Assembly: GCA_034620365.1 (NCBI GenBank)
Contig: JAQGEQ010000043.1
Location: 248,001 to 312,000 of the forward strand
Direction of reading: 5' to 3'
Length of the DNA stretch: 64,000 bases
Source of the DNA: Pegea sp. RAD2-039
Lineage: Eukaryota > Chordata > Thaliacea > Salpida > Salpidae
In this document: positions 3,001 through 34,703 of the stretch, in pieces
Numbering within the stretch: position 1 is the stretch's first letter
Layout: the number at the start of each line of letters is the position of its first letter
Translations under genes and position numbers: made by a program
Notes under the pieces: model-generated
What the model was told of the DNA's origin: nothing
The model's database searches: none
What the model saw: the letters and a program-made list of their open reading frames with translations, nothing else

Positions 3001-6000
3001 GAATTCTCAGATGCTATGAAATGTAATGCTTCTTTTACATTTCAACTAACGTCAACGAAGTCAAACTTTTCCGAAAGTAGAAAACTTTGTCAATTAATGG
3101 GTGGTGATTTGATTCATCAAACATTAGGATTTCATGAAGTTGGTTCAACTTATTTTAGGTAACTGTTAGTTGCATGGCACTTCTTTCAAAACTTTTTTAG
3201 TCTGACTAAAAATTAGTAATAGAAATAACTAGAAAGAATTATTCGATTAACTTTATAATAAAAAGTGTTTCAGTTAGCTTTTTCACCTAAACAAATCTTT
3301 TGTAGTTTAGTACAATTATTTTTGTAATTATTTGAACTAAATTAATAGTTAAGAAAGAAAATCAAACTTGGTTCTGTGGGTAAGCTGTTTTAGCTTAAGC
3401 TATTTGTAGCATATGTACTTAACACACATATATTTCCAAACATTAGTAATTTTATTTCAATTTAAAATTGTAACATATTTAACTATATTTTAGTGACATC
3501 AATGAATATTCGAAATTACCAGAAAGCTCGGAGACCCAGTTCTATATTGGAATCACTGATTTGAAATATAAAGGAGACTTTAGATTTATTGATGATACAA
3601 AATGGGATTTCAATAATTCAGATATACCTCAACTGTTAAATTGGACGAGTGGTGAGCCTAATAATATCAATGGAAATGAACGTTGCGTTGAAATCCGAGG
3701 TGTTAATACGTTGAATGACCGAAAGTGTACAAGAGAATACTTTGGGCTTTGTGAAATCAAAACAATTACTTGTGTCTCTGAAACTATTCCAACAAGTTGT
3801 GAGGCAGCACCTGATGTTAATAATTCAACTATCAGTATTGCTTATACTAATTTGGAAAACGACTTCATTAGTTCAGAAGCAAGTTTGACTTACATTTGTG
3901 ATGGTGATCTGTTGTTTGTTTCGCCTGACAAATCCAAGTGGAACTGCAGTGAAAAAATAAACTCGTCTATCTATACAACGCCGCAATGTGTAACTAGTCA
4001 GTTGTATTTATGTACTTATATAATTAGTTTGATAAATGTTTAAATAAACTTTTCTGTAAAAATAAATATTCAATGTTTAAATAACTCTAATATCAAGAAA
4101 CTGAAAAATTATCTAGAATATTGGCAGTATTAATTTTCAATAGAATCCTCATATCAGTTTTTTTCATTTCAATTCTCTCATTAATAACTGAGTATTGAAA
4201 TACATTTTAAAATTGTCTGATGCTTAATTTCAAATGTTAGATTTTGTCTTTTTCCATTCTAATTATTATAAAAGTAGTTAAGTCTTTTTTGGGATAACAT
4301 TTATAAATAGATCTATTTATAAATAGATTGTGGTCCGGCACCTGATCTTGAAAATGGAAGCAAATTTATAGTCGACAGCATTATCGTAAATGATTCATTT
4401 AGCCTGGAATTGAAAGTGAATTATACATGTGACAGTGATTTTTTCCTTTTTCCACACAATTATTCACAATGGAGCTGTCTTCAGGGAGGAAAATGGTCGT
4501 ACTCATTACAACCTCGCTGTTTAAATAGTATGATATAAGTTTTGCAAAAGTAGTGCTTTACTCTTAGATTGATTTTGATATAAACTTTTCAAACTTTTAT
4601 ATGATTCAATCATAAATTTGTTTTAGTAACATCTAACATTACTTCACTGAACTGTAATTTTGAAACTGAATTTTGCAATTGGATCAGTGAAGTTGAAAAT
4701 GATTGGATTTTGAAAAATGGTACGCTTTTAATTGTTTAAATCCAATATTTAGTACTTCCAAAGTTAATAGATTAAAAACTGATTATAGAAACTTATCAAC
4801 TACGTGCTGCATCTGCTGGGTATAAATCAGGAAAATATTCTGAGATTGAAGTGGACAGTATATCTTACAATTTAAGTGCTAGTCCAGTGCTAATAGGGCA
4901 TCATATTGTTGAAATAAAGACTGAAACAAATACTTTTACTGAAAGAATGTTTAATGTTTTCGGAAATGCAGAAGAGGTTCAAATTATTTTTGCTCATTAA
5001 AATTATCTAAAGCTTTTTTCAACTATTTCCTAGTTTGACTTAAAGCAAAAGTTTGCTTTATAGTTAGATTTTCAAATAATGCTTGAAGTATAAGTTCACT
5101 TTTCTTTACCAAAAGGTCGACAATATGCTTTCATATTTGATGAATGATGTCAGCTATGGATCTATTTTGTTGATAGCTATTAAAGACACAACTTTAAATG
5201 AACGCCTTTCTTCATCCAGTTTATACGTGGAACAATTTACTGCATTAGGAGCAGGAGATACGGAAGAATGCCCACTTTTTCCTGGTAAATTTATGCGTTT
5301 TAACAAATAAAATAAATAGTAGGTTTTAAGTCTTAACTCTATTTATAACGAGTTGTATAAATTTTTAAGGTATAACGTCAACACTAATTGTTGTATTTAT
5401 TATTAGTTTTGATTATCTCTCTTAGAAATTAGATCAAGCTGGGCGATGATAACGATGAAGGTTCGGAATAAAACTGAAATACCCGACTGGTTTGTTTGCA
5501 ATTATGCCACGAATAAATCTGTTGAAGTTTCTACAAATGCCTATAAAAGTAAAAAAAAGATAATATTGATATTTATCAAATTATATAATTGAATATTTGT
5601 CATTTAGATCGCTATATGCTTTTTGATGAGGCAAAATCAAGTTCAAAAATATCTTCACGACTAGCTTCAGTTCAACTTTTACCTCCATCCTCAGAATATT
5701 GTATTTGTATGCAATTCAAATATAAATCATTTGGATTAAGCGTTGCAAAGTTGTCTTTTACTGCTAAAAGCATAAGCACTGGAGATGAAAAAAAAGTAAA
5801 TCAAACTCAAAATACGAAAAATGATATTTAAGTGATTTTGGCAGATATGGTCAAATACAAGAGTATCAGCTGGTACTTGGTTACAAGACAAGGTTTTTTA
5901 TATGAACACACGTGAAACATATCAATTAGCATTTACAGTTGATCGCTCAGAAGAATCATTCACTAATGTTTCTGTTGATGATATTTTCTTCAGCAAAATT

Positions 6001-8359
6001 AATGCTGAAAACTGTGGTAATTACAAATTTACAGTTTTAAACATTAAAACATAATCTGTTAATTTTGCTACTAAGGTGTTTCTTATGTTTTAATAATTAT
6101 TAAATTTTAAATAATCATGTTTTGTTCACATACTAAAAAAAATTGTATAAGACTTCGCTTACAAAACTTAAAGTAAATTTTGTCTTGGTACACATGAGCA
6201 ACGAGCTGCTGCAAATTAATAAGCTAAAACGTCTGAGAAAATATTTTTATTTTTCGTTATAAACTAAAATATATTTCAAAAATACTATAATTATTTAATA
6301 AAATAATTGTTTTCATTTGATTATCCATACAAGATCTAAGTAAATATTGATTTAGTGATTAATCAGTTATAAATAAATTTTACTTTTGTCAACTAGAATG
6401 CCCTTTGCTCTATAATACTGCAAATGGAAAAATTGTTCCTCGAACAGAACTTGAAGATGGAAGATATTTGCTTGGAACTATTATTGATTATGTGTGTGAT
6501 GAGTTTTATGTTGAAGCTGAAGGGGATAATTTTACATTAGCTTGTCAAGATGATGGTACTTGGAATTCTACTGTTGTTCCTCGTTGTGTTTTAGGTATTT
6601 TCTGAATAAGAGTGTTTTTTTCAAAAATTTTAATTTTCTCAACAGTTTTACTAATTTTAATTTTTATACATTCATATTTAAAATATGAAACTTCTAATCA
6701 GCAAGTTTTTTTGATAAGCACACTCCTAGTTGTAAACTTAAATCACCTATATCAAAAAATCAGAAGCCTAACTTCTCAAACAAAAGGCTATAAGAATTGA
6801 TAAGTAAAATGTATTATCTGTTGTTGTTTATATTATCAAAAAAACATTTAATATTTGCTATAAAAATTTTTTTTGTTTATGCTTACATCCACTAAACAGT
6901 GTTAATATTTAGAAAATTTAGTAGACAGTTTTACTTCAGTAATATTAATTACACTTGAACCACAGCAGGTTAAGGTAATAGAAAATAATACAGCGATAGA
7001 ATGAACTGTATTTCAAAATGTCTTAATCAAAAATACTGTTTAGAATTAATATATTTTGTAAATAAAGTCGCTTATAAGATTACGCGCCTGTAGTAAAAAA
7101 GGTTCACTTGCTAACTGACAATTGGTAATAAGCTATATAAAGTGATTTAAAGCCTAAAATACTTAAAAATTCATATTGGAAATTAGAGTAAGAATATTTG
7201 TGTAATATCTATTCGATTACTCTGCTTTAATATACAGCAACTTGCAACTAACTTTTTTTCAGACAATAAACATCATTAAATTTTAGTTTAAATTTTACAA
7301 AATAGAATTTCAAGATATACTAAAAACAGAAAGTGCAAACTTTATTATTAGGAAGTTTATTTCTTTTAAATTAAAGATTTTCATATTATTAAGTGATTAC
7401 TTTTATTTATAGGCCAATGAGATTTTCTTTAAATTCTACTCAAGTTGTTTTTAGAGTAATTGAGCCTTATCATTAACAGAGTATTGGAGTGCTTGCATCA
7501 CTGCAATAATTTAGCACTTTTACAGTGAACATCATCAGATTTCTAGATTTTACAAACTTTTCTTCTTCACAGAGTGGTCTGATAGCAGAAAATGTAACGT
7601 CTCATATGAGTTTTTTGCTACACCAACTAAAGACAACTTTACGAATTCACAAACTTATTGTCACTCATTAGGAGGAGATATAATTCATCAAACATTAGGA
7701 TATACTGATGTTGGCTCAGCTTATTTCGAGTAAATAAATTATTTTTATTGTGCTTTCATTTTTTGTCGTAATGAATCTGTTTACTAACATTATTTCGTGA
7801 TAAGACTGTAATTATAACCAAATTTTTCAAGCACTAAACATATATTTATCATCGTTTTGTTAGCTTTGAGCTATATATATTAGTTATCTCTTTAATGTGG
7901 TTTGCCTTTTTAATTTAATATTTACCAGCATTAATAGATTTAATCTTTGTATTTTCTAGTAACTGATAGCTTTTAAGCTAAATTATCGCTTATGAAGTTA
8001 TATGACTTTATATGTTTTCGAAAGCCAGGTCAAAATTGATTTCTTTTTGTGTTTTTAGTGAAATACAAACTTTAATAGACGACCTGGCTTCTGAAAGGGG
8101 TTCTTTTAATCCGCTAGTTGGACTGACTGATATTGTTGAAGAAGGAACATTTACTTTTATCGACTATACTGTGTTTGATTATGATAACCCAATAACCTCT
8201 CGGGCTTATTCATGGATGAGACGAGAGCCTAATAATTACTTGAATGCAGAAGATTGTGTTCAACTCCTTAAATCTTTTGGTGTATATTCACTGAATGATG
8301 TTGATTGCTCGGCACCAAATTATGCACTTTGCGAAGTCAAGAATATAACATGCTCTTAA
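1..8359 (+). CDS. Lectin gene A: sushi / CTLD / MAM-ILEI secreted protein (5' partial)
   Basis: Exons: 1-116 (partial CCP), 165-365, 627-821, 870-1070, 1333-1527, 1576-1776, 2038-2232, 2281-2481, 2677-2874 (CCPs); 3002-3158 and 3494-3996 (CTLD1, then CCP); 4327-4527 (CCP); 4627-4719 (start of MAM); 4789-4976, 5116-5284, 5426-5548 (ILEI/GG domain); 5608-5795 and 5845-6016 (rest of MAM); 6397-6594 (CCP); 7573-7729 and 8059-8359 (CTLD2, stop TAA). CCP exons are phase 1-1 and carry four cysteines each. Both CTLDs keep EPN and a later Asn-Asp before the next cysteine, the known Ca2+/mannose-type site. There is no membrane segment after CTLD2, so secretion is inferred. It differs from genes B and C by having at least four copies of the CCP2-CCP3 pair. 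AATAAA signals lie at about 8410 and 8440. The physiological role is unknown. Confidence 0.85.
482..528 (+). pseudogene. Truncated CCP4 exon relic, unit 1
   Basis: After the acceptor-like TTGAAG the sequence reads ECSLTCNTPN then a stop at 526, resembling the first third of the intact CCP4 exon (2677-2874). It then passes abruptly into sequence that normally precedes CCP2. This marks the recombination joint of the 705-bp unit. Confidence 0.7.
1187..1230 (+). pseudogene. Truncated CCP4 exon relic, unit 2
   Basis: Same joint as at 482 but more decayed; reading from the acceptor-like AAG reaches a stop after five codons. Confidence 0.6.
1893..1939 (+). pseudogene. Truncated CCP4 exon relic, unit 3
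   Basis: Same joint as at 482, with the same short frame ending in TAA at 1937. The following unit (2038-2481) is the only one that continues into an intact CCP4 exon. Confidence 0.7.
4300..4323. promoter_or_regulatory. 24-bp palindrome at a 3' splice site (gene A)
   Basis: Perfect inverted repeat centred on AGATCT, with arms TTTATAAAT / ATTTATAAA. It overlaps the acceptor (AAATAG) of the CCP6 exon starting at 4327. It also creates a second TAAATAG 16 nt upstream of the used one. It could fold and hide the acceptor; function unproven. Confidence 0.6.
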
Positions 8360-11184: not shown

Positions 11185-11960
11185 TTAAGATGATATGAAT
11201 GATAGTTTTTCAGTTCTGCAGATAACTGAAATCAGCGAAACTGGTCTGTAGTTAAGTGCAGTGTTTCTGGAACCCTTTTCATGAATTGGAGTAATGATAG
11301 CTTTCTTCCAAATTGGTGGAAGTCTACCTCGCCTTAGAATGATGTTAAAGAGTGGCGATAAAAGTAGTGGTAAAGAGGAAGTAGTTTTTCTTAGAACCAA
11401 AGCCGGGATCTGATCTGCAGTGTTGGAAACTGATGATTTGAAAAAAAAGATAGTCATATCTACCATATGGACCGTTATATCAAAATCTATCATCTCAGAG
11501 AATTTTGTAAGAATGTCTGACTAGGAAAGAGAAGGAGTATTGCCATCATCAGTTTAGAAACTACTATTAAATTGATTGTTTAGCAATTGGACTTTATTCT
11601 CTGGTTCCATCACAAGCTGGTCGCCATTATCACGTAAGGGAGGTAATTGAGATCCCGCCTCAAGCTTATGATTTATAAAGCGAAAAAACATTTTCTTGTT
11701 AGGTGAAGATAAGACTGCAGTTTCTCTTCATAAATAAAAATTAGAAATAGAAGAATCTTTGTACAGAGATTTGATGGAAGGGTCTGCTTTAGTTTGTTTG
11801 TATAAGTGGTTTTTCAAATGATGTAATGTTGTTTAAGCGACTACAATATTATATTTACTTAGCCATCTGACAAATCCTTTGTAGAACTATCTAACTGTCA
11901 TTTGTAGTAGAACAAGAAAAATTTTCATATAGATTAAATAATGATAATTTTGGTATATTT
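11185..11960 (-). mobile_element. CR1 LINE fragment, inverted
   Basis: The minus strand encodes a piece of CR1 ORF2 ending in the first reverse-transcriptase blocks (PPIWKKAIITPIH, then NYRPVSLISVICRTE), matching 25150-25575 of the copy B element in opposite orientation. Upstream minus-strand codons are broken by stops. The distal limit near 11960 is approximate. Confidence 0.75.
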
Positions 11961-12107
11961 TGATGGTATAGAACGTTTAATTTTATGTTAAAGTTTTCTT
12001 GAAAAGTCAGAATGTTAACGTAATGCTGTAACTACAAACTCACAACTCATTAAGATCATTGTCCCAAAGATTTTTCATGATCAACAGTTGATGTCTCATT
12101 TTGTTGA

Positions 12108-12752
12108 ATGAGATTAAAAAATAAAAGCTTCAAAAGATTCGAAAGATTCAGTGCATGGATGCCATATCAAGTTGGTGATATCAGAAAAATCGAATCTGTT
12201 CAGGCAACATTTACGAGATTGGTTTGCAGGAAACTTAATATCAAATACGAGAGTTATAAGCATCGTCTCAGCTTCTTCAATCTAGATACTTTGGAAATCC
12301 GAAGAATTAAATACGACCTTATTCTGATTTTTAAAATTATTCACAACCTAATTGATCTTCAGTTTGATGACTTTTTCTCCATTAGTCCCTCCCTCAAGTT
12401 ATATCAACTTAGAAGACATAAATTACATCTTAATAAGCCCACTCCACCAGCTACGTTAACCAGATTAAGTTTTTTCTCATACCGCACAATCAGTACATGG
12501 AACAATCTGCCATCAGAGATTGTCATGTCAAAATCACTTATGCTGTTCAAGAAAAAGCTGAATTGTTATAATATCGCCAACATTGCCATTTCTAAACTGT
12601 GAATTTTTCTCTTTTACAATACTATGATTCTGTGCAATTCTTCATTGTCATATGCTTTTTCGTTTACACGTCAAATAGATCTAATTTGTGAGAATGTGTG
12701 TTAGCGAGAGGTGCTCTTTTTAGGCACCCTCCTTCACATTTATTGTAATAAG
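12108..12752 (+). mobile_element. CR1 LINE 3' end, 5'-truncated
   Basis: 164 codons (12108-12602) match the C-terminus of CR1 ORF2 (SAWMPYQVGDI, then LSFFNLDTLEIRRIKYDLI, then NIANIAISKL). A 3' UTR follows with the same GAGAATGTGTG motif as the copy B element (26948). It lies head to tail with the inverted fragment 11185-11960 and runs into the TAAA array. Confidence 0.85.
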
Positions 12753-13371
<619 letters not shown>

Positions 13372-14232
13372 GTTTTGCGAATATTTTAGTAGTTTGCAAA
13401 AAATAAGTTTAAAAATAAGATTTGAAAAATAGGTTCAGATTTTCATACCATGTTTTCCATGTAAATTTGAACCATAATCAAGTTAACTATTTGAGAATAA
13501 CATTTTTCCAATAGTTTTGAGTCAAACGATACCTAAATAGTAAAATGTTGAAAAAATAACCAAAATAGCAAAGTTGTAAAGAAAGCTAAAGAAAATTTAT
13601 AACTTCATCAAGACAAAAGTATTAGTTTAAAACAATTTTCAACAAATTGATGTAACTTTGAGCTTCCATAAAAGTATCGGAAGTTTACCAAGCACTTAAG
13701 AGATTTTACTTAGCTGTACTTGTTTGTGGAGGTTTGCAACTTAAGTAGTACCCGTATAATCATAAAACAAGGTTTGCTGTACTGGTGCACAAACAAAAAA
13801 AAAATGAGGTAGTAGTATTATTACTAAAAAGAGTTCTTAGCAAAAAATTCTTATTATTAGTTTATATATCCAGGTGTCGTAATGAATTACAGACTACTTA
13901 GAACAAAACATGACTGAACTAATGAGTGCTTAAAAATGAGTTTTATACTTTTATCACATTTCTTTGTATTTTAAAGTATTTTGTCAGGTAAGATAAAACT
14001 ATCATTAATGTTTAGTTACTATTAAGCGTAAAAATAATATTTTTCATATATACTTAAAACTATTTATTGAAACTTGAAAAAAATCTATATTAAACATTAC
14101 TTTAAATCAGTTTATAGCTTTATAAGTTTACTATAAAGTTTATTATAATAACAAAATAACATTTAATATTGAATAATGAGATAAATTCAAATACTATAAA
14201 GTTTAAATATACCAAGAGTTTGTATGACCATT
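13372..14232. other. Spacer and 5' flank of gene B
   Basis: AT-rich with no recognisable gene. From about 14170 it is homologous to the 5' flank of gene C. A TATAAAG lies at 14195, 144 bp before the start codon, and is not kept in gene C. Confidence 0.5.
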
Positions 14233-17300: not shown

Positions 17301-20300
17301 TATTAATTTTCAATAGAATCCTCATATCAGTTTTTTTCATTTCAATTCTCTCATTAATAACTGAGTATTGAAATACATTTTAAAATTGTCTGATGCTTAA
17401 TTTCAAATGTTAGATTTTGTCTTTTTGCATTCTAATAATTATAAAAGTAGTTAAGTCTTTTTTGGGATAACATTTATAAATAGATCTATTTATAAATAGA
17501 TTGTGGTCCGGCACCTGATCTTGAAAATGGAAGCAAATTTATAGTCGACAGCATTATCGTAAATGATTCATTTAGCCTGGAATTGAAAGTGAATTATACA
17601 TGTGACAGTGATTTTTTCCTTTTTCCACACAATTATTCACAATGGAGCTGTCTTCAGGGAGGAAAATGGTCGTACTCATTACAACCTCGCTGTTTAAATA
17701 ATATGATAGAGGTTTTGCAAAAGTAGTGCTTTACTCTTAGATTGATTTTGATATAAACTTTTCAAACTTTTATATGATTCAATCATAAATTTGTTTTAGT
17801 AACATCTAACATTACTTCACTGAACTGTAATTTTGAAACTGAATTTTGCAATTGGATCAGTGAAGTTGAAAATGATTGGATTTTGAAAAAGGGTACGCTT
17901 TTAATTGTTTAAATCCAATATTTAGTACTTCCAAAGTTAATAGATTAAAAACTGATTATAGAAACTTATCAACTACGTGCTGCATCTGCTGGGTATAACA
18001 CAGGAAGATATGCTGAGATTGAAGTGGACAGTATATCTAACAATTTAAGTGCTGAATCAACCAAATTAGGGCATCATATTGTTGAAATAAAGACTGAAAC
18101 AAAAACTTTTACTGAAAGAATGTTTGATGTTTTCGGAAGTGTAGTAGAGGTTCAAATTATTTTCGCTCATTAAAGTTATCTAAAGCTTTCTTCAACTATT
18201 TCTTAGTTTGACTTAAAGCAAAAGTTTGCTTTATAATTAGATTTTCAAATAATGCTTGAAGTATAAGTTCACTTTTCTTTACCAAAAGGTCGACAATATG
18301 CTTTCATATTTGATGAATGATGTCAGCTATGGATCTATTTTGTTGATAGCTATTAAAGACACAACTTTAAAAGGACGCCTTTCTTCATCCAGTTTATATG
18401 TGGAACAATTTACTGCATTAGGAGCAGGAGATACGGAAGAATGCCCACTTTTTCCTGGTAAATTTATGCGTTTTAACAAATACATTAAATAGTAGGTTTT
18501 AAGTCTTAACTCTATTTATAACGAGTTGTATAAATTTTTAAGGTATAACGTCAACACTAATTGTTGTATTTATTATTAGTTTTGATTATCTCTCTTAGAA
18601 ATTAGATCAAGCTGGGCGATGATAACGATGAAGGTTCGGAATAAAACTGAAATACCCGACTGGTTTGTTTGCAATTATGCCACGAATAAATCTGTTGAAG
18701 TTTCTACAAATGCCTATAAAAGTAAAAAAAAAGATAATATTGATATTTATCAAATTATATAATTGAATATTTGTCATTTAGATCGCTATATGCTTTTTAA
18801 TGAGGTAAAATCAAGTTCAAAAATATCTTCACGACTAGCTTCAATTCAACTTTTATCACCATCCACAGAATATTGTATTTGTGTGCAATTCAAATATAAA
18901 TCATTTGGCTTAAGCGTTGCAAAGTTGTCTTTTACTGCTAAAAGCATAAGCACTGGAAATGAAGAAAAAGTAAATTAAACTCAAAATTTCAAAAATAATA
19001 ATTAAGTGATTTTGGCAGATATGGTCAAATACAAGAGTATCAGCTGGTACTTGGTTACAAGACAAGGTTTTTTATATGAACACACGTGAAACATATCAAT
19101 TAGCATTTACAGTTGATCGCTCAGAAGAATCATTCACTAATGTTTCTGTTGATGATATTTTCTTCAGCAAAATTAATGCTGAAAACTGTGGTAATTACAA
19201 TTTTACAGTTTTAAACATTAAAACATAATCTGTTACGTTTGCTACTAAGGTGTTTCTTATGTTTTAATAATTATTAAATTTTAAATAATCATGTTTTATT
19301 CACATATTAAATAAAATTGTATAAGACTTCGCTCGAAACACTTAAAGTAAATTTTGTCGTGGTACACATGAGCAACGAGCTGCTGCAAATTAATAAGCTA
19401 AAACGTCTCAGAAAATATTTTTATTTTTCGTTATAAACTAGAAATTATTTCAAAAATACTAAAATTATTTAAAAAATAATTGTTTTCATTTGATTATCCA
19501 TACAAGATCTAAGTAAATATTGATTTAGTGATTAATCATTAATAAATAATATTTACTTTTGTCAACTAGAATGCCCTTGGCTCTATAATACTGCAAATGG
19601 AAAAATTGTTCCAAGAACAGAACTTGAAGATGGAAGATATTTGCTTGGAACTATTATTGATTATGTGTGTGATGAATTTTATGTTGAAGCTGAAGGGGAT
19701 GATTTTACATTAGCTTGTCAGGAAGATGGTACTTGGAATTCTACTGCTGTTCCTCGTTGTGTTTTAGGTATTTTTTTAAAGAGATTTTTTCTAAAGTTAA
19801 AAAGTTTTCATAAAAGTTGTACTAATATTAGTTTTTCTACATTCTTATTTGAAATATGAAACTTTTTATCAACAAGTTTTTTGCTTATCAAACTTCTAGT
19901 TGTAAACTTTAATCAGCTATATCAAAAATTCAGAAGCCGAACTTCTCAAACAGAAGATTATAAGAATTGATAAGTAAAATGTATTATCTGTTGTTGATTA
20001 AATTATCAAAAAAAAACATTTTATATTTGTTATAAAACTATTTTTATTTCTTGCTTACAGCCAATAACTAGTGTTAATATTTACAAAACTTAGTAGAAAG
20101 TTTAACTTCAGTAATAGTAAGTACTCTTGAACAACAGCAGATCGAGGTATTATAAAATACTACATCGATAAAAATAAGTTTATATCAAAATACCTTAATC
20201 TAAAATACAATTTAAACTATTATATTTAGTAAATAAAGTCGCCTATAAGATTACGCGCCTGTAGTAAAAAAGGTTCACTTGCTAACTGACAAATGGTAAT

Positions 20301-21360
20301 AAACTATATAAAGTTGTTTAAAGCCTAAAATACTTTAAAATTCTTATTGGAAATTGGAGTAAGAATATTAGTTTAGAATCTATTCGATTTTTCCGCTTTA
20401 ATATGCAGCAAACTGCAACTAACTTTGTTATCAGACAATAAAAATCATTGAATTTTACTTAAAATATTACAAAATAGAATTTCCAGATATGCAAAAACAT
20501 AAAGTTCAAACTTTATTATTAAGAAGTTTATTTCTTTTAAATTAAAGATTTTCAAATCATTAAGTGATTTTTTTTATTTAGAGGCGTTTGAGATTTTCTT
20601 TAAATTCTACTCAAGTTGTTTTTAGAGTAATTGAGCCTTATCATTAACAGAGTATTGGAGTGCTTGCATCACTGCAATAATTTAGCACTTTTACAGTGAA
20701 CATCATCAGATTTCTAGATTTTACAAACTTTTCTTCTTCACAGAGTGGTCTGATAGCAGAAAATGTAACGTCTCATATGAGTTTTTTGCTACACCAACTA
20801 AAGACAACTTTACGAATTCACAAACTTATTGTCACTCATTAGGAGGAGATATAATTCATCAAACATTAGGATATACTGATGTTGGCTCAGCTTAATTCGA
20901 GTTAATAAATTATTTTTGATGTGCTTTAATTTTTTTGTCATAATGAATCTGTTTACTAACATTATTGTTAAGTTATCGCTTATCAAGTTATATGACTTTT
21001 TATGTTTCCTAAAGTCAGGTCAAAATTGATTTTGCTTTGTTTTGTTTTTTTAGTGAAATAAAAACTATGATTGACAACCTGGCTTCTGAAAAGGGTACTT
21101 TTAATCCGCTAATTGAACTGACTGACATTGTTAAAGAAGGAACATTTACTTTTATTGACAATACTGTGTTTGATTATAATAATCCGAAATTCCCTCGGCT
21201 TTATTCATGGTTGTTCGGAGAGCCTAACAATTATTTAAAGAAAGAAGATTGCGTTCAAGTGTTTAAAGATAAAAACACAGGTGTATATGCACTGAGTGAT
21301 GTTGATTGCTCGGCACCAAATTATGCACTTTGCGAAGTCAAGAATATAACATGCTCTTAA
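14339..21360 (+). pseudogene. Lectin gene B: sushi / CTLD / MAM-ILEI protein, probably inactive
   Basis: Exons: 14339-14387 (signal peptide, MCSSCVFAGVTWAAII), 14518-14712, 15213-15407, 15456-15656, 15851-16048 (CCP1-4), 16177-16333, 16667-17169 (CTLD1, CCP5), 17500-17700 (CCP6), 17800-17892 (MAM start), 17962-18149, 18289-18457, 18599-18721 (ILEI), 18782-18969, 19019-19190 (MAM end), 19570-19767 (CCP7), 20744 onward and 21054-21360 (CTLD2). Lesions relative to A and C: the last cysteine of CCP2 is Tyr (NYYPS); the CCP2 donor is GC; the CCP6 donor GT is AT at 17701; TAT has become TAA at 20893 in CTLD2, with its donor GTAAAT changed to GTTAAT; and the CTLD2 Asn-Asp ligand is Ser-Asp. If transcribed, the best outcome would be a protein lacking CTLD2. 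Confidence 0.75.
17473..17496. promoter_or_regulatory. 24-bp palindrome at a 3' splice site (gene B)
   Basis: Identical to the palindrome at 4300-4323, three bases before the CCP6 exon at 17500. Confidence 0.6.
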
Positions 21361-22869: not shown

Positions 22870-23812
22870 ATGAAAACTATGGTGGATCCACATAAAAGTG
22901 GCAAGACCTTACGGTCAACTGTAATGAAAAAATACTGAAAAACCGATTTCATCAAAGCAAGATTGCAATTGCCAATCCTGCAATAAAATTTGCTCTGGTG
23001 AAGATCCGGTAATTGAATGCTTTAAATGTCTCTCCTGCTTTCATCTCACATGTAGTGATGTGAACAAGAAAGTTTATGATATGTTTGATAAAAACCAGAT
23101 GAAGCAAATGGGATTTAAATTTAAACGGGATCTAAATTTGCATTAAATGTAGAACTACCGACACAACAGCTAACTCAACCAATTCTGATGAAAACCTATT
23201 ATCAGACATCAGCAAATCTGTATCTGCTGAATTAGTAAAACTTAGATCGGAAATTGCCAAAGATGTTGCCAAGATTGATGAGAAAGTTTCTAGTTTGTCT
23301 AAATCAATGGACGAACTGAATGACTCTACAAAGAAACAAGTCACATGGGCCTCAGTGGTCGGTGATCCCGGTTCCGACAAAAATGCTAACATGGTGCGGC
23401 TTCTTGCCAAGAAGGTCACCGAAACGCACAAAAAACTCACTTTTGACCGTGAGGACAGAGAAAACATTGTCTATAGTGTCTCTGAGACTGATAAAGATGA
23501 TGAAGTGAGCTTTTTAATCAAGTGTGCTCTCAAAGCCTCGATTTTGTGGACGTTACAAAGGTATCAATGACTAGACTTGGAGCAAAAAGCTCAGATCATC
23601 AAAGACCGTTTAAAGTGTTCTTTTAGGAAAATTGGAACAAATGCAAGTTTCTTTCCAAACTGTATAAATTAAAGTTTGAGAAAAAATTCAAGCGCATTAG
23701 AGTAGCACATGATATGTATGAAGATGATCGCTTAGAAAATAGGCGTCTTCTAAAAGAAGCGAATAACCGAAATCAGAAGGAACAACCAACTGATTTTAAA
23801 TACAAAGTTTGA
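22870..23812 (+). pseudogene. CR1 ORF1 remnant
   Basis: After an early stop and frameshift the sequence encodes a cysteine/histidine cluster at about 22968-23060 (CNCQSC, then CFKCLSCFHLTC), typical of a PHD-like finger. A polar segment follows (23160-23560) with KKQVTWASVVGD. The reading frame is broken near 23110 and after 23560. In intact elements ORF1 binds RNA. Confidence 0.7.
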
Positions 23813-24067
23813 GGTCCACTATGGGCCTTTAGAATTAAGGTTTTTTCAAAAAACGGAATTGGCAAATAATCACTGGACCCACATCTTCTTTTTTCAAACT
23901 CTCTCCGGACACAACTGTTAATACCCAAGATATCAATTTACAGAAGCCCATCATCAAATCTCACAAGCATCAACAAGACAATTCTTCTATCACATTTTCT
24001 GTACTTGTTCTTCAAGCACTTTCGATTATTAACAAAATTTTTTAATTAAAAGCTTTTTTGTATTTTT

Positions 24068-26818
24068 AAGATTTCACATTTGGTTTTATTGCTGAAACTT
24101 GGTTGGAACCGTTTTATCCTGATTCTTTTCTGGTTGACGGTAATCTTTTTTGAGTTTTGCGTTGTGATAGACTGTATGATAGAGGCGGCGGTGTTTGCGT
24201 AATTTACAAAATATTGCACCAAAGATCTCTACAATTCAGATCGATCCCATTAATTTTCCAGGGTTTGAGATTATTGCGTTTGATTTTCATTACTCAAAGC
24301 CCAAATTCTCTCGTTTTATATGTACCTATCTACCACCCTCTAAAACTAATGACTGGATTACTGTTAAGGCCCTTTTGAAAGTACTGAAAAATGTTGTCTG
24401 TCCTGAGTTATATATTTTGGGGGATTTTAATTTTAGTATAATTGATTAGAATAATCCGAATTTAGCATTTATTGGAAAATCGTTTGACTTGGATAGCGAT
24501 AATACTATTTCACCCTTTCTAAGTCATGTCTTTGTAAGCTTCCTCAATGCTAATAATCTATCTCAGATGGTTACTTTCCGACCCAAGTTAGTGGTAATAC
24601 TTTGGATCTTCTTATCACATCGAAACTCGAGAACATTATCTACGTTGATCAAAAAGAACGTTTTGCTTTGACATGCGATCACAATATGATTGAATTCACG
24701 CTCCATCAAACTGTTTTTATGAACGTTAAAACTTCAAGCAAAAGGAATTTTCACTGTGAAAATTATAATGGCATTAACAAGTTTCTATCAGATGTTGACT
24801 GGATTTATGTTTTCAACTCTTCCGAAGACATCAATACTATTTACTCAAGGTTTACTAACATCGTTAAGGAGTCAATCGAAAAATTCATACCTTTTTATAG
24901 AGCCAACAAAAAACCGCATTGGCCCAAAAATTTTAAGAACTTACAACATTTAAAAAACCTCCTATACAAACAAACTAAAGGAGACCCTTTTATCAAATCT
25001 TTCTACAAAGATCTATGTATAGTTTACAAGAAATCTATTTCTAATTTCTATTTGGGAAGAGAAAGTTCAGTTTTATCTTCACCTTGCAAAAAAAACGTTT
25101 CTTGGTTTCATAAATCGCAAGCTTAAGGCAAGATCTCAAATACCTCCCTTGCTTGATAACAGCAACCAGCTTGTGATGGAACCAGAAAATAAAGCTGAGT
25201 TGCTAAACAATCAATTTAATAGCGTTTTTATAACTGATGATGGCAATACTCCTCTCTCCTGCTCCGACATTCTTACAAATGTCTCTGAGATGGTAGATCT
25301 TGACATAACGGTCAATATGATATCTAAGTCTATTTTTTCTTTAAAATCATCAGTTTCCAACACCCCAGATCAGATTCCAGCTTAGTTTAAAAAAAAACTA
25401 CTTCCTCTTTATCACTACCTTTATTGCTTTTCTTTAACATGACTCTGGGGCGAGGAAGAGCTCCACAAATTTGGAAGAAAGCTATTATTACTCCAATTCA
25501 TAAAAAGGGTTTCAGAAACACTGCACTTAACTACAAACCGGTATCGCTGACTTCAGTTATCTGTAGAACTGAAGAGCATATAATTCACAATCATATGACC
25601 AGTCATTTGATGGAGCACCATCTAATATCTGATGTCCAACATTGCTTTGTGAAACGGAGATCTTCCCTGACTCAACATCTCACTTTTCTTAATGAGCTTA
25701 CAGCTTATTATCAAAGTAACACTCCCTGTGACATCATATACCTCGAGTTTGCTAAAGCGTTTGACTTTGTCCCACACACTAAGCTCGTTACTGTATTGAA
25801 AAACTTAAAAATCAACGGCTTTATCTTACAGTGGATTGAAGGTTACCTATCAGGTAGAAGCCAACAAGCTGATGTGGAAAGATCTTTATCCACTTCTAGT
25901 CAAATCTCTAGTGGTGTTCCTCAGGGCTCAGTTCTGGGCCCCCTTCTCTTTTTAATTTTCATTGAAGACCTCATCAGAAGATTAGTATCAGTAGATGATG
26001 TCAGAGTGTTTGTGTATGCAGATGATATCAAGCTATTATCTTGTAATCCTTCAAAACTTCAAACTACACACTGTAGAAAACTGGTCTACGAAGTGGCAGC
26101 TCAGAATCCACCCAAAGATTCTGAACTTATAACTTTTTCTAGTAAACCAGCTGTAAATTGTTTGAAACAATACTCCATCAATAGATTTATTATTCAACGA
26201 GTATCTTCGGTCCTAGACCTTGGCATTACTCTATTATCTGACTTTAAATGGCGCAATTATGTTTCCAAAATCTTTGGAACCTTGTCTTCCTTATTATAAA
26301 GACCTTTAATTCTAAGAACCCATGCTTATTTATCAATCTTTTCAAATTGTACGTACGTCCAATTCTTGAATATAATGTCAGTGCATGGATGCCATATCAA
26401 GTTGTTGGTATCAAAAAATCGAATCTGTTCAGGCCACATTTACAAGAGAAGTATGTAGGAAACTTAATATTAAATATGATAGTTATAACCATCGTCTCAG
26501 TTTCTTCAATTTAGACTCTTTGGAAATCTGACGGATTAAATACGACTTAATTCTTATTTTTATAATTATCCATAACTTAATTGACATTCAGTTTGATGAT
26601 TTATTTTCTACTAGTCCTTCCCTCAAGTTATATCAGCTAAGACGACACACATTACATCTAAATAAGCCTATATCAACTAGTACATTGATCAGAGCAAATG
26701 TTTTCTCATACCGTACAGTTAATAGATGGAACCAGTGGCCATGTCAAAGTCACTTGCGTTGTTCGAGCAGAAGTTGAACCGTTATAATATTGCCAACATT
26801 GTCATTTCTAAACTGTGA
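24068..26818 (+). pseudogene. CR1 ORF2 remnant (endonuclease-reverse transcriptase)
   Basis: The endonuclease start (FIAETWLEPFYPDSFLVDG) is at about 24075, with a stop at 24151 where the minus-strand copy at 42372-42692 has Cys. Further stops and shifts occur near 24447, 24600 and 25120. The RT domain is at 25424-26299 with FAKAFDFVPH, the GVPQGS block and the YADD box. The C-terminus (SAWMPYQV) is in another frame from about 26380. Confidence 0.8.
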
Positions 26819-27610: not shown

Positions 27611-30600
27611 ATGTGTTCTTCCTGCGTTTTTGCTGGAGTAACATGGGCGGCCATCATTTGTGAGTACCTTATAATATTTTCTGCATGATGTTTTAATAAA
27701 TTGTTTAAAGAGAGTAAAAACTTTGTATGAATAATAAAGTCAAGTTTTGACTGATAGAATAACACTTTATAATATTTGGAATAACATTTTACACCTCAAT
27801 TTATAAAGTATGTGGCATTCCTCCTGAAATAAGAAATGGATCTTATTCCGGACCTTCTAAAGCAGTTTCAGGATCAATCTACAATTATTCTTGTAATAAA
27901 GGATTTATTGCATTTGGAGAATTTAAAAGCAATCTACAGGTGGAATGTTTATCAAATGGCAGTTTTTCACTAGATAGTGATCATCTTGCAGTATGTCTAC
28001 CAGGTAAAGAATTTGTAGAAATTTAACAAAATGTAAGAAGCATCAAATAGATACAATACTAATTCAAATTTTGATTTAAAATGAAGAATTTTGAAAATGA
28101 TAAGGAAAAGATTAACAAATTAAATTTTCGAACTAAATTACTTTATTTAAAAATAAGTTTTTTTTCTAAACAATGTTTTCAGTTATTTAAAACAGTTCAA
28201 AAACAAATGTTACTTTTAACAATTATTTGATAATATACGGTAATATAAAAAAAACATCAAATTGATTACTATTAAGCTTAAAAAGTAAAGTTTCATTTAT
28301 TCCTAAGATAATTGATTAAAACTCAAACTAGTATGAAAATAAGGACTAAAACTTTCCATTGTTTATCCTAATTTCCTATGAAAATTCAGGCTGTGATCGT
28401 CCACCGTCGCTTAAAAATGGAAACTTTTCAATTTCCTATGCAGTTTTTGAGACAATGTATTTATCTGGCACAATGGTAGAATATACTTGTGATAGTGGGT
28501 ATGCATTGTATCCTAAAGAAAACAGCACGCTTTCTTGCAATAGTTCAGGAGAATGGAAAGGTATAGTTGGAAACTGTTATCCAAGTAAGTTATAAATATA
28601 TTGCTACAATATGTATAACAGTTATTCATTAGTTTGCAGTCCAGCACCTGATCTAGATAATGGTTTTAAAAATATTACGAATCAAATCGTAATTAATGAT
28701 ACATTGACACTTGAATTAGAAGTCATATACTCATGTGACTTAAGCAGCGTAATGGTTTCGGAAGATAAAAATAATTGGACTTGCTTATCTCCTGGCTCGT
28801 GGTCTAACACAGCTTTACCTAAATGTTTAAAAGGTAGTAGTTATTTCTAGTAGTTATGATTAGTGAATTTTTGTATATAAACAATTTCCATTAAACATTC
28901 TAAAAATAACCTTTTTATTTAAAAATTTGAATAAAAAGATTAGGAACAATTTTCGTATAATTCTTGTATATCCATTAAACACTTCAAAAATAAATTGGTT
29001 ATTTAGCTACTATTCTCTTTTCTTAAAGAGTGTACTTCAATTTACAACATTCCAAATGGAAAACTTGTTCCGATATATGAGCCAGTTGTTGGTAGATATG
29101 TATCTGGAACAATTGTTGAATACGTTTGTAATGAGCATTATCTTAAAAAAGAAGGAGATACTTATACAAAAGCTTGTCAGGAAGATGGTACTTGGAATTC
29201 TACTGCTCTTCCTCGTTGTATTCTTGGTAAGTTAGCTTGTTTGTTTTCAAGTTTTAAGTTACTCAATCATAAATTTTTCAGTAAAAGTCATTAAAATTTT
29301 AGTAAATTGTTTTTAGTTGCATCTATTTCTTTAGTAGTTTAAATCTTTTGCAGAATTCTCAGATGCTATGAAATGTAATGCTTCTTTTACATTTCAACTA
29401 ACGTCAACGAAGTCAAGCTTTACCGAAAGTAGAAAACTTTGTCAATTAATGGGTGGTGATTTGATTCATCAAACATTAGGATTTCATGAAGTTGGTTCAA
29501 CTTATTTTAGGTAAATGTTAGTTGCTTGGCAATTCTTTCAAAGCTTGTTTAGTTTGACGTTCTTAGTAATAGAAATAACTAGAAAGAATTATTCGATTAA
29601 CTTTATAATAAAAGGTGTTTCAGTTAGCTTTTTCACCTAAACAAATCGTTTGTAGTTTAGTACAATTATTTTTGTAATTATTTGAACTAAATTAATAGTT
29701 AAGAAAGAAAATCAAACTTGGTTCTGTGGATAAGCTGTTTTAGCTTAAGCTATTTGTAGCATATGTACTTAACAGAAATATATTTCTAAACATTAGTAAT
29801 TTTTAATTAAATTCAAAGTTGTAAAGTTTTGTTTTAGTGATATCAATGAATATTCAAAACTAGACGAAGGCTCAGAGACCCAGTTCTATATCGGAATCAC
29901 TGATTTGAAATATCAAGGAGACTTTAGATTTATTGATGATACAAAATGGGATTACAATAATTCAGATATACCTCAACTGTTAAAATGGACGAGTGGTGAG
30001 CCTAATAATGAGAATGGAAATGAACGTTGCGTTGAAATCCGAGGTGTTAATACGTTGAATGACCGAAAGTGTACAAGAGAATACTTTGGGCTTTGTGAAA
30101 TCAAAACAATTACTTGTGTCTCTGAAACTATTCCAACAAGTTGTGAGGCAGCACCTGATGTTAATAATTCAACTATCAGTATTGCTTATACTAATTTGGA
30201 AAACGACTTCATTAGTTCAGAAGCAAGTTTGACTTACATTTGTGATGGTGATCTGTTGTTTGTTTCGCCTGACAAATCAAAGTGGAACTGCAGTGAAAAA
30301 ATAAACTCTTCTATCTATACAACGCCGCAATGTGTAACTAGTCAGTTGTATTTATGTACTTATATAATTAGTTTGATAAATGGTTAAATAAACTTATCTG
30401 TAAAAATACATTTTAAATGTTTAAATAACTCTAATATCAAGAAACTGAAGAATTATCTAGAGTATTGGCAGTATTAAGTTTCAATAGAATCCTCATATCA
30501 GTTTTTTTCATTTCAATTCTCTCATTAATAACTGAGTATTGAAATACATTTTAAAATTGTCTGATGCTTAATTTCAAATGTTAGATTTTGTCTTTTTGCA

Positions 30601-33600
30601 TTCTAATAATTATAAAAGTAGTTAAGTCTTTTTTGGGATAACATTTATAAATAGATCTATTTATAAATAGATTGTGGTCCGGCACCTGATCTTGAAAATG
30701 GAAGCAAATTTATAGTCGACAGCATTATCGTAAATGATTCATTTAGCCTGGAATTGAAAGTGAATTATACATGTGACAGTGATTTTTTCCTTTTTCCACA
30801 CGATTATTCACAATGGAGCTGTCTTCAGGGAGGAAAATGGTCGTACTCATTACAACCTCACTGTTTAAATAGTATGATATAAATTTTGCAAAAGTAGTGC
30901 TTTACTCTTAGATTGATTTTGAAATAAAATTTTTAAACTTTTATATGACTCAATCATAAATGTATTTTAGTCTCATCTAACATTACTTCAATGAACTGTA
31001 ATTTTGAAACTGAATTTTGCAACTGGATAAGTGAAGTTGAAAATGAGTGGATTTTGAAAAATGGTACGCTTTTAATTGTTTAAATCCAATATTTAGTACT
31101 TCCAAAGTTAATAGATTAAAAACTGATTATAGAAACTTATCAACTACGTGCTGCATCTGCTGGGTATAACTCAGGAAAATATTCTGAGATTGAAGTGGAC
31201 AGTATATCTTACAATTTAAGTGCTAGTCCAGTGCTAATAGGGCATCATATTGTTGAAATAAAGACTGAAACAAATACTTTTACTGAAAGAATATTTAATG
31301 TTTTCGGAAATGCAGAAGAGGTTCAAATTAATTTTGCTCATTAAAATTATCTAAAGCTTTTTTCAACTATTTCCTAGTTTGACTTAAAGCAAAAGTTTGC
31401 TTTATAATTAGATTTTCAAATAATGCTTGAAGTATAAGTTCACTTTTCTTTACCAAAAGGTCGACAATATGCTTTCATATTTGATGAATGATGTCAGCTA
31501 TGGATCTATTTTGTTGATAGCTATTAAAGACACAACTTTAAATGAACGCCTTTCTTCATCCAGTTTATACGTGGAACAATTTACTGCATTAGGAGCAGGA
31601 GATACGGAAGAATGCCCACTTTTTCCTGGTAAATTTATGCGTTTTAACAAATAAAATAAATAGTAGGTTTTAAGTCTTAACCCTATTTGTAACGAGTTAT
31701 ATAAATTTTTAAGGTATAACATCAACACTAATTGTTGTATTTCTAACTAGTTTTGATTATGTCTCTTAGAATTTAGATCAAGCTGGGCGATGATAACGAT
31801 GAAGGTTCGGAATAAAACTGAAATACCCGACTGGTTTGTTTGCAATTATGCCACGAATAAATCTGTTGAAGTTTCTACAAATGCCTATAAAAGTAAAAAA
31901 AAGATAATATTGATATTTATCAAATTATATAATTGAATATTTGTCATTTAGATCGCTATATGCTTTTTGATGAGGCAAAATCAAGTTCAAAAATATCTTC
32001 ACGACTAGCTTCAATTCAACTTTTACCTCCATCCACAGAATATTGTATTTGTATGCAATTCAAATATAAATCATTTGGATTAAGCGTTGCAAAGTTGTCT
32101 TTTACTGCTAAAAGCATAAGCACTGGAAATGAAGAAAATGTAAATCAAATTCAAAATTTAAAAAATAATATTTAAGTGATTTTGGGCAGATATGGTCAAA
32201 TACAAGAGTATCAGCTGGTACTTGGTTACAAGACAAGGTTTTTTATATGAACACACGTGAAACATATCAATTAGCATTTACAGTTGATCGCTCAGAAGAA
32301 TCATTCACTGATGTTTCTGTTGATGATATTTTCTTCAGCAAAATTAATGCTGAAAACTGTGGTAATTACAATTTTACAGTTTTAAACAATAAAACATAAT
32401 CTGTTAATTTTGCTACTAAGGTGTTTCTTATGTTTTAATAATTATTAAATTTTAAATAATCATGTTTTGTTCACATACTAAATAAAATTGTATAAGACTT
32501 CGCTTAAAACACTTAAAGTAAATTTTGTCTTGGTACACATGAGCAACGAGCTGCTGCAAATTAATAAGCTAAAACGTCTTAGAAAATAGTTTTATTTTTC
32601 GTTATAAACTAAAAATTATTGCAAAAATATAAAAATTATTTAAAAAATACTTGTTTTCATTTGATTATCTATAAAAAGTCTAAGTAAATATTGATTTAGT
32701 GATTAATCAGTTATAAATAAATTTTACTTTTGTCAACTAGAATGCCCTTGGCTCTATAATACTGCAAATGGAAAAATTGTTCCAAGAACAGAACTTGAAG
32801 ATGGAAGATATTTGCTTGGAACAATTATTGATTATGTGTGTGATGAGTTTTATGTTGAAGCTGAAGGGGATAATTTTACATTAGCTTGTCAAGATGATGG
32901 TACTTGGAATTCTACTGTTGTTCCTCGTTGTGTTTTAGGTATTTTCTGAATAAGAGTGTTTTTTTCAAAAATTTTAATTTTCTCAACAGTTTTACTAATT
33001 TTAATTTTTATACATTCATATTTAAAATATGAAACTTCTAATCAGCAAGTTTTTTTGATAAGCACACTCCTAGTTGTAAACTTAAATCACCTATATCAAA
33101 AAATCAGAAGCCTAACTTCTCAAACAAAAGGCTATAAGAATTGATAAGTAAAATGTATTATCTGTTGTTGTTTATATTATCAAAAAAACATTTAATATTT
33201 GCTATAAAAATTTTTTTGTTTATGCTTACATCCACTAAACAGTGTTAATATTTAGAAAATTTAGTAGACAGTTTTACTTCAGTAATATTAATTACACTTG
33301 AACCACAGCAGGTTAAGGTAATAGAAAATAATACAGCGATAGAATGAACTGTATTTCAAAATGTCTTAATCAAAAATACTGTTTAGAATTAATATATTTT
33401 GTAAATAAAGTCGCTTATAAGATTACGCGCCTGTAGTAAAAAAGGTTCACTTGCTAACTGACAATTGGTAATAAGCTATATAAAGTGATTTAAAGCCTAA
33501 AATACTTAAAAATTCATATTGGAAATTAGAGTAAGAATATTTGTGTAATATCTATTCGATTACTCTGCTTTAATATGCAGCAAACTGCAACTAACTTTTT

Positions 33601-34703
33601 TTTCAGACAATAAACATCATTAAATTTTAGTTTAAATTTTACAAAATAGAATTTCAAGATATACTAAAAACAGAAAGTGCAAACTTTATTATTAGGAAGT
33701 TTATTTCTTTTAAATTAAAGATTTTCATATTATTAAGTGATTACTTTTATTTATAGGCCAATGAGATTTTCTTTAAATTCTACTCAAGTTGTTTTTAGAG
33801 TAATTGAGCCTTATCATTAACAGAGTATTGGAGTGCTTGCATCACTGCAATAATTTAGCACTTTTACAGTGAACATCATCAGATTTCTAGATTTTACAAA
33901 CTTTTCTTCTTCACAGAGTGGTCTGATAGCAGAAAATGTAACGTCTCATATGAGTTTTTTGCTACACCAACTAAAGACAACTTTACGAATTCACAAACTT
34001 ATTGTCACTCATTAGGAGGAGATATAATTCATCAAACATTAGGATATACTGATGTTGGCTCAGCTTATTTCGAGTAAATAAATTATTTTTATTGTGCTTT
34101 CATTTTTTGTCGTAATGAATCTGTTTACTAACATTATTTCGCGATAAGACTGTAATTATAACCAAATTTTTCAAGCACTAAACATATATTTATCATCGTT
34201 TTGTTAGCTTTGAGCTATATATATTAGTTATCACTTTAATGTGGTTTGCCTTTTTAATTTAATATTTACCAGCATTAATAGATTTAATCTTTGTATTTTC
34301 TAGTAACTGATAGCTTTTAAGCTAAATTATCGCTTATGAAGTTATATGACTTTATATGTTTTCGAAAGCCAGGTCAAAATTGATTTCTTTTTGTGTTTTT
34401 AGTGAAATACAAACTTTAATAGACGACCTGTCTTCTGAAAGGGATACTTTTAATCCGCTAATTGGACTGACTGATATTGTTGAAGAAGGAACATTTACTT
34501 TTATCGACTATACTGTGTTTGATTATAATAACCCAAAAACCTCTCGGCTTTATTCTTGGATGAGACGAGAGCCTAATAATTACTTGAATGCAGAAGATTG
34601 TGTTCATCTCCTTAAAACTTCAGGTGTATATTCACTGAATGATGTTGATTGCTCGGCACCAAATTATGCACTTTGCGAAGTCAAGAATATAACATGCTCT
34701 TAA
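27611..34703 (+). CDS. Lectin gene C: sushi / CTLD / MAM-ILEI secreted protein (complete)
   Basis: Seventeen exons, 3288 nt (1095 residues), all junction phases consistent: 27611-27659 signal peptide; 27809-28003, 28390-28584, 28633-28833, 29029-29226 CCP1-4; 29354-29510 and 29838-30340 CTLD1 plus CCP5; 30671-30871 CCP6; 30971-31063 MAM start (NCNFETEFCNW); 31133-31320, 31460-31628, 31770-31892 ILEI/GG domain; 31952-32139 and 32190-32361 MAM end; 32741-32938 CCP7; 33917-34073 and 34403-34703 CTLD2. Most donors are GT; CCP5 ends at ACTA|GTCAGT. CTLD1 has GEPNN and LNDRKC; CTLD2 has REPNN and LNDVDC, so both should bind Ca2+ and sugar. No transmembrane segment or GPI signal is seen. The ATG was chosen because its frame enters CCP1 in the right phase; an ATG 14 bases upstream does not. 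Ligand and role are unknown. Confidence 0.88.
30644..30667. promoter_or_regulatory. 24-bp palindrome at a 3' splice site (gene C)
   Basis: Identical to those at 4300 and 17473, three bases before the CCP6 exon at 30671. Confidence 0.6.
30971..32361 (+). other. MAM domain split by an inserted ILEI/FAM3 domain (gene C)
   Basis: The first MAM exon supplies cysteines 1 and 2 (NCNFETEFCNW). The MAM core resumes at 31952 (RYMLFDEAKSSSK, then YCICMQFKYKSFG) and ends with VDDIFFSKINAENC. Between them about 160 residues match the ILEI/PANDER fold of FAM3 proteins: LRAASAGYNSGKYSEIEV, GHHIVEIKTET, FNVFGNAEEV, YGSILLIAIKDTTLNE, IRSSWAMITMKV. The same arrangement is in gene A (4627-6016) and gene B (17800-19190). 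Confidence 0.75.

Follow-up and report, generated by a model that had tools for sequence, protein, structure and literature searches.

An ILEI/FAM3 (GG) domain nested within a MAM domain in lectin genes and further genes of the salp Pegea sp.

The GG domain is known from the FAM3 cytokines, from POMGnT1, from the nematode protein FAMP-1 and from hyaluronidase-type proteins. In the cell surface hyaluronidase TMEM2 it sits in line within the protein and is not known to lie inside a MAM domain. Domains are inserted into one another much more rarely than they are shuffled end to end. PMC9802357 describes the cytokines FAM3A-D/ILEI as free-standing secreted domains and reports that the stem of POMGnT1 binds beta-linked GlcNAc via Arg129, Asp179 and Arg207. 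For FAM3C, FAM3A and Fam3L2, a FAM3-like domain of a nematode, the same paper reports binding of sugars too, GlcNAc among them (PMC9802357). We searched the open-access literature for an ILEI or PANDER-like domain together with a MAM domain, for a domain insertion in a MAM domain and for an ILEI domain in a lectin, and found none of these. FAM3 and the MAM domain do occur in the text of two papers, with a single mention each, and a paper on NOD receptors and one on astacins came up for invertebrate FAM3/ILEI architectures and for tunicate proteins with MAM, C-type lectin and sushi domains, respectively. Thus, as far as the open-access literature goes, the arrangement described here appears to be undescribed, as had been supposed when the sequence was first read: its parts are known and the nesting is new.

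The window analyzed here is a stretch of 64,000 nucleotides (C30:248001-312000) from an assembly of 105.7 Mb in 387 contigs, which was searched as a whole. Its GC content is 27.9% and its genes contain introns. Three lectin genes of the window each carry a unit, termed MAM(ILEI), in which the exons of an ILEI domain lie between those of a MAM domain:

4627..6016, + strand: MAM(ILEI) of lectin gene 1, exons 4627-4719, 4789-4976, 5116-5284, 5426-5548, 5608-5795 and 5845-6016
17800..19190, + strand: MAM(ILEI) of lectin gene 2, exons 17800-17892, 17962-18149, 18289-18457, 18599-18721, 18782-18969 and 19019-19190
27611..34703, + strand: lectin gene 3, 17 exons and 1095 aa in the splice model
30971..31063, + strand: MAM-N of gene 3, ending at 31063, first two MAM cysteines (CNFE..FCNW), short and without the DHT loop
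31133..31320, + strand: ILEI-a of gene 3, first part of the nested ILEI/FAM3 (GG) domain, starting in phase 1 and ending in phase 0
31460..31628, + strand: ILEI-b of gene 3, YGSILLIAIKD...GAGDTEECP, phase 0 to phase 1
31770..31892, + strand: ILEI-c of gene 3, FRSSWAMITMKV...PDWFVCNY, phase 1 to phase 1
31952..32139, + strand: MAM-C1 of gene 3, MAM resuming at RYMLF, third MAM cysteine
32190..32361, + strand: MAM-C2 of gene 3, last MAM strands (SVDDIFF) and fourth MAM cysteine

The six exons between 30971 and 32361 end in the phases 1, 0, 1, 1, 0 and 1 and have AG/GT borders throughout. Lectin gene 3 encodes a putative signal peptide and then, in this order, sushi/CCP domains (Pfam reports five stretches, seven can be counted by eye), a C-type lectin domain, the MAM(ILEI) unit and a second C-type lectin domain which is followed by the stop codon. 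The start codon and the putative signal peptide were picked by eye, and the hydrophobic first exon, likewise judged by eye, suggests that the product is secreted. With Pfam the domains Sushi, Lectin_C, MAM and ILEI score above cut-off in this protein and HRM falls below its own; Lectin_C (PF00059) matches in two stretches with 80.3 bits. In the sequence of both C-type lectin domains the EPN motif is present, a motif which goes with mannose/GlcNAc-type binding in this domain family.

Several features of the surroundings deserve mention. In lectin gene 2 the first exon of the second C-type lectin domain (20743-20901) is interrupted by an in-frame stop (SA*FE), so this copy may be cut short close to its end. 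At window positions 1-2480 gene 1 shows extra CCP2/CCP3 exon pairs with a repeat of ~0.7 kb, which suggests that exons have changed in copy number within the lectin cluster. Inspection by eye showed reverse-transcriptase-like open reading frames at 23136-26299, between lectin genes 2 and 3, with similar ones at 11185-12602, and a long tandem repeat at 12664-13434 reads (LFIY)n on the minus strand. As to the genome at large, GH6 genes and let-7 clusters are tunicate marks; a GH6 match is present with 27.5 bits (cut-off 27; 35 bits for the exon), and three tandem let-7-like hairpins, each below the curated score, lie within 0.6 kb at G000:C42:53785-54357 (L047, L048). Both point to a tunicate. 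A mitochondrial cox1 was not found in the assembly, and one exon compared as DNA with plasmids gave no match.

For the profile analysis the unit of lectin gene 3 (30971-32361, called W3) served as main reference and was spliced to a protein of 310 aa; the curated Pfam cut-offs are 26.4 bits for MAM (PF00629) and 27 bits for ILEI (PF15711). On the spliced protein MAM scores 66.8 bits (2.6e-18), split into two stretches at E<=10; the ILEI match has 31.1 bits (3.5e-7) and covers residues 67-161. The insert by itself, 31133-31892, matches ILEI with 32.5 bits. When the insert is taken out, a single MAM match over profile positions 1-153 of 158 results, with 60.4 bits for the joined parts versus 55.4 bits for the C-part by itself. 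The ILEI scores are modest in the window copy, 30.1-32.5 bits, and range from 30.1 to 45.4 bits across the four units scored. In the full 1095-aa protein of gene 3 MAM is reported as one stretch, namely the C-part. The assignment of the N-part of W3 is supported by the motif C-x-F-E..C-x-W, by the joined alignment and by the complete first exon of a paralogue on contig C262. In all ten units that were aligned (of 15) both Pfam domains match at E<=0.01, and the residues C9, F11, C16, W18 and W26 are invariant; the four MAM cysteines C9, C16, C63 and C149 of the insert-free alignment are invariant in all six units given for them (of 15). A continuous MAM chain with the TGP..DHT loop was found in none of the 15 units, as ILEI interrupts every one of them, and the loop is retained only in C262. 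We regard the nesting of an ILEI/FAM3 (GG) domain in a MAM domain at 30971-32361 as confirmed at the level of sequence, with both halves belonging to MAM and the whole being a nested variant of it. Searches of the genome exon by exon gave two places for PF15711, neither of them nested, and for PF00629 matches of 20-24 bits on the C30 lectins, below cut-off; such searches miss or under-score the nested units because each exon is short.

The sequence-only reading of this window had claimed an ILEI domain between MAM parts in all three lectin genes, and the six-exon set is indeed found also at 4627-6016 and 17800-19190. It had placed two junctions at 31063/31133 and 31892/31952; these positions are right and both are phase 1 with AG/GT borders in the splice model. 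The two profiles that it had proposed for the spliced translation both match above cut-off. The absence of an ILEI match from 31133-31892, which it had named as one of two refuting results, did not occur. One of its motifs has to be corrected in part, as IRSSWAMI holds for copies 1 and 2 and the copy at 30971-32361 has FRSSWAMI.

The genome was also queried with the spliced 310-aa protein, and this search revealed at least 15 MAM(ILEI) units, a number which is a lower bound: six lectin copies on C30, three of them outside the window at 205 kb, 216 kb and 436 kb, one unit on C113, seven on C258 (lettered a to g) and one on C262. All 15 were modelled. Their internal junctions are GT-AG without exception, exons 1-5 end in the phases 1, 0, 1, 1 and 0 in 15 of 15 units, and no stop codon lies inside a unit. 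Phase 1 is found at the end of the last exon in 11 units. In C258g a stop codon follows directly after the fourth MAM cysteine, C258a and C258c have TA at this place, and the last exon of C262 was cut at the cysteine because it continues into the next MAM. Among the ten aligned units (of 15) the identity with the window unit goes down to 32-37%. On C258 the units b-a and d-c are arranged head to tail with matching phases. Three kinds of genes carry MAM(ILEI), that is, the sushi/C-type-lectin genes of the window, sushi genes with one or two units on C258 and a large multi-MAM gene on C262. With at least 15 places the two-in-one unit looks like a real building block. An MAM-N-like exon on C38 (L046, G000:C38:4000-13900, at ~4648-4734) was not counted as a unit since no ILEI exon was found with it; it adjoins a sushi-like exon with a short simple repeat. 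The region G000:C262:757000-820000 is a dense MAM array with one LDLa-like stretch by eye, and in one of its MAM domains the ILEI insert was seen.

The C262 unit is informative with respect to the insertion point. Its first exon reads CTFETGLCDW...TDPSQGSSNDHTTLASG, then come the ILEI exons, and then GYYMHF, which is the normal continuation of MAM. The complete first half of MAM including the DHT loop is thus retained; without the insert MAM scores 114 bits in one stretch over positions 1-157 of 158, and with the insert 102.3 bits in two stretches. In the 14 other units the first exon has a length of 93 bases and stops ahead of the DHT loop, which appears to have been lost secondarily. For comparison we assembled a set of 16 ordinary MAM domains, that is, 18 MAM-N-like places minus the nested unit of C262 and minus one place in a meaningless frame (L005, + strand). 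An intron directly after the DHT loop was verified as phase 1 in six of the 16 and as phase 0 in one; by eye, four have no intron there, one shows a phase-1 donor, two have an earlier intron and two are ambiguous. With phase-1 introns on either side, an ILEI cassette fits this site without a change of frame, and from the phase-1 introns of the ordinary MAM domains we infer one insertion of a phase 1-1 cassette and subsequent duplication. The first interpretation, an in-frame insertion of ILEI into a MAM intron, had been offered as plausible and is supported by these sequence comparisons. A maximum likelihood tree was built from eight nested ILEI domains (8 of the 15 units), the POMGnT1-like and FAM3-like sequences of the same genome and two human GG fragments. 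The eight nested domains fall on one side of a branch with support 97/99, and own_POMGnT1 and own_FAM3 form long branches. In one pattern scan 4/4 nested versus 0/3 ordinary MAM domains had a YTNT-type motif in their last exon, a weak hint to a common origin of the nested units. A single insertion followed by duplication would be the simplest reading.

We suggest that MAM(ILEI) is a composite module, probably extracellular, and consider the following course of events likely. An ILEI/GG exon cassette with phase-1 introns at both ends would have entered a phase-1 intron of a MAM domain once, at a site just past the DHT loop where the MAM genes of this lineage may carry an intron. The two MAM parts could then pair across the insert, keeping the four MAM cysteines, and the ILEI fold would protrude from the MAM loop. 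The composite would have been duplicated in one piece into the three kinds of genes. As the lectin line seems to have lost the DHT loop, ILEI might now be a fixed part of it. With respect to function, the insert could serve as an extra glycan-recognition head on a secreted multivalent lectin, similar to the GlcNAc-binding stem of POMGnT1. The insertion step is unusually readable since three states coexist in one genome: MAM introns of the right phase without insert, the C262 unit with its complete first half, and the nested copies without the loop.

We compared the exons of W3 and C113 for silent and protein-changing substitutions. In this single pair ILEI-b has a dN/dS of 0.34/1.05, ILEI-c of 0.26/1.07 and MAM-C1 of 0.34/0.54; the values for ILEI-a, MAM-N and MAM-C2 are 0.55/0.52, 0.20/0.14 and 0.32/0.30, respectively. 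Among the six C30 copies ILEI-a has a mean dN of 0.102 and a mean dS of 0.040, with mean intron distances of 0.00-0.07. The bootstrap fraction with pN<=pS is 0.0075, or 0.0055 without the loop codons, uncorrected and for one of 16 exons tested; in the four of six copies which pass the no-gap filter the ratio is 1.43 (P 0.21). Ratios above one were also obtained for ILEI-c (1.11), MAM-C1 (1.29), CTLD2a (1.92) and CTLD2b (1.18, 3 copies), MAM-C2 shows no silent change among the C30 copies (P 0.017), and the sushi, first lectin, MAM-N and ILEI-b exons have ratios of 0.11-0.60 (3 to 6 copies each). These values are no more than suggestive of positive selection on ILEI-a among the C30 copies. It is a speculative and rather unlikely idea that MAM(ILEI) is a recurrent recognition module whose nested ILEI head varies and selects the ligand, with protein change in ILEI-a outpacing that of the silent and intron sites among the six recent lectin copies. 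If true, this would fit an immune or self/non-self receptor diversifying by tandem duplication.

The placement of a GG domain in a lectin makes the proposed role in sugar binding directly testable. The residue offset to POMGnT1 was read off the profile alignment, and the spacings of 50 and 28 agree. Among the 13 units checked, equivalents of Arg129, Asp179 and Arg207 are all present in one (C262), two are present in nine and one in three. All six C30 lectins keep those of Asp179 and Arg207 and have I or L at Arg129. As the window lectins lack this arginine, GlcNAc binding of the POMGnT1 type is not assured for them; glycan binding appears plausible for C262 and possible for the lectin units. 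The insert might instead be a structural or protein-protein interaction piece and the C-type lectin domains, which have both retained EPN, would bind the ligand. The missing arginine and the complete triad in only one of 13 units fit this alternative, and we hold it for possible, with some doubt, because two of the three residues persist in 6/6 C30 copies and because FAM3C, FAM3A and the worm Fam3L2 domain bind GlcNAc and other sugars, as stated in PMC9802357.

The remaining alternatives concern the protein itself. The ILEI exons could be an optional cassette, and the main isoform a plain MAM domain: phase 1 at both ends allows skipping in frame, the products expected from skipping in W3 and C262 stay open throughout, and plain MAM without insert still matches Pfam. 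However, the first exon stops before the DHT loop in 14 of 15 units, so that a skipped product would lack the loop, and the W3/C113 ratios of ~0.33 for ILEI-b and ~0.25 for ILEI-c (one pair) suggest that these exons are translated; this makes the optional cassette improbable. It could further be argued that the first exon is an unrelated short linker and the protein an ILEI domain with a truncated MAM behind it, as the 30-aa MAM-N exon of W3 by itself, too short to score, gave no Pfam match at E<=1. In C262, however, the whole N-half with the DHT loop is present in one full MAM alignment, and the five invariant residues listed above lie in 10/10 aligned units, which leaves very little room for a linker. 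Finally, tandem copies and the stop in the later C-type lectin exon of gene 2 could raise the suspicion of an assembly or prediction artefact or of dead gene copies, which is hardly credible given that four contigs carry 15 units and that all of these have intact internal junctions and are free of internal stops. In our view a composite module which arose by insertion is the likely explanation.

The comparison with solved structures agrees with the assignment of both domains. A single-sequence search of the PDB with the insert gave no match up to E=1, and an eight-row profile of the insert matched the POMGnT1 stem (1.1e-5, 1.3e-4) and TMEM2 (5.3e-4) and nothing else up to E=1. By sequence profile the closest solved relative of the insert is the POMGnT1 stem (PDB 5ggf, 5ggg, 5ggi-5ggl, 5ggn-5ggp, 5xfc), with which it has in common the positions around RG(I/H), KD and R(D)xW. 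The stem, however, lies N-terminal to a glycosyltransferase and is not nested, whereas the nested copies share two conserved cysteines that are particular to them (CP, WF.C), and the set of three sugar-contact residues is incomplete in 12 of the 13 nested units checked. A POMGnT1-like gene of the same genome (L044, G000:C258:2003500-2013400) has one open frame of 676 aa with 55.6 bits for ILEI and 152.9 bits for GNT-I and is thus apparently without introns over that stretch. The GG domain of TMEM2 (PDB 8c6i) is the weaker match of the insert profile. The cytokines FAM3A-D/ILEI belong to the same Pfam family, PF15711, as the insert, and in the FAM3-like gene of this genome (C6:594846, 29 bits) the intron places, by eye, differ from those of the nested copies. 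The MAM profile matched 11 PDB chains at E<=0.01, with enteropeptidase best (3.3e-13). The MAM domains of enteropeptidase, MDGA1, neuropilin, meprin and RPTP kappa match the insert-free MAM part over nearly the full length, and in enteropeptidase (three alignments printed) only residues of the DHT loop occupy the position of the insert. The C262 protein resembles the multi-MAM/LDLa proteins of the MALRD1 kind in its dense MAM array with one LDLa-like stretch by eye; in the part of the array that was read one C262 MAM domain carries the ILEI insert.
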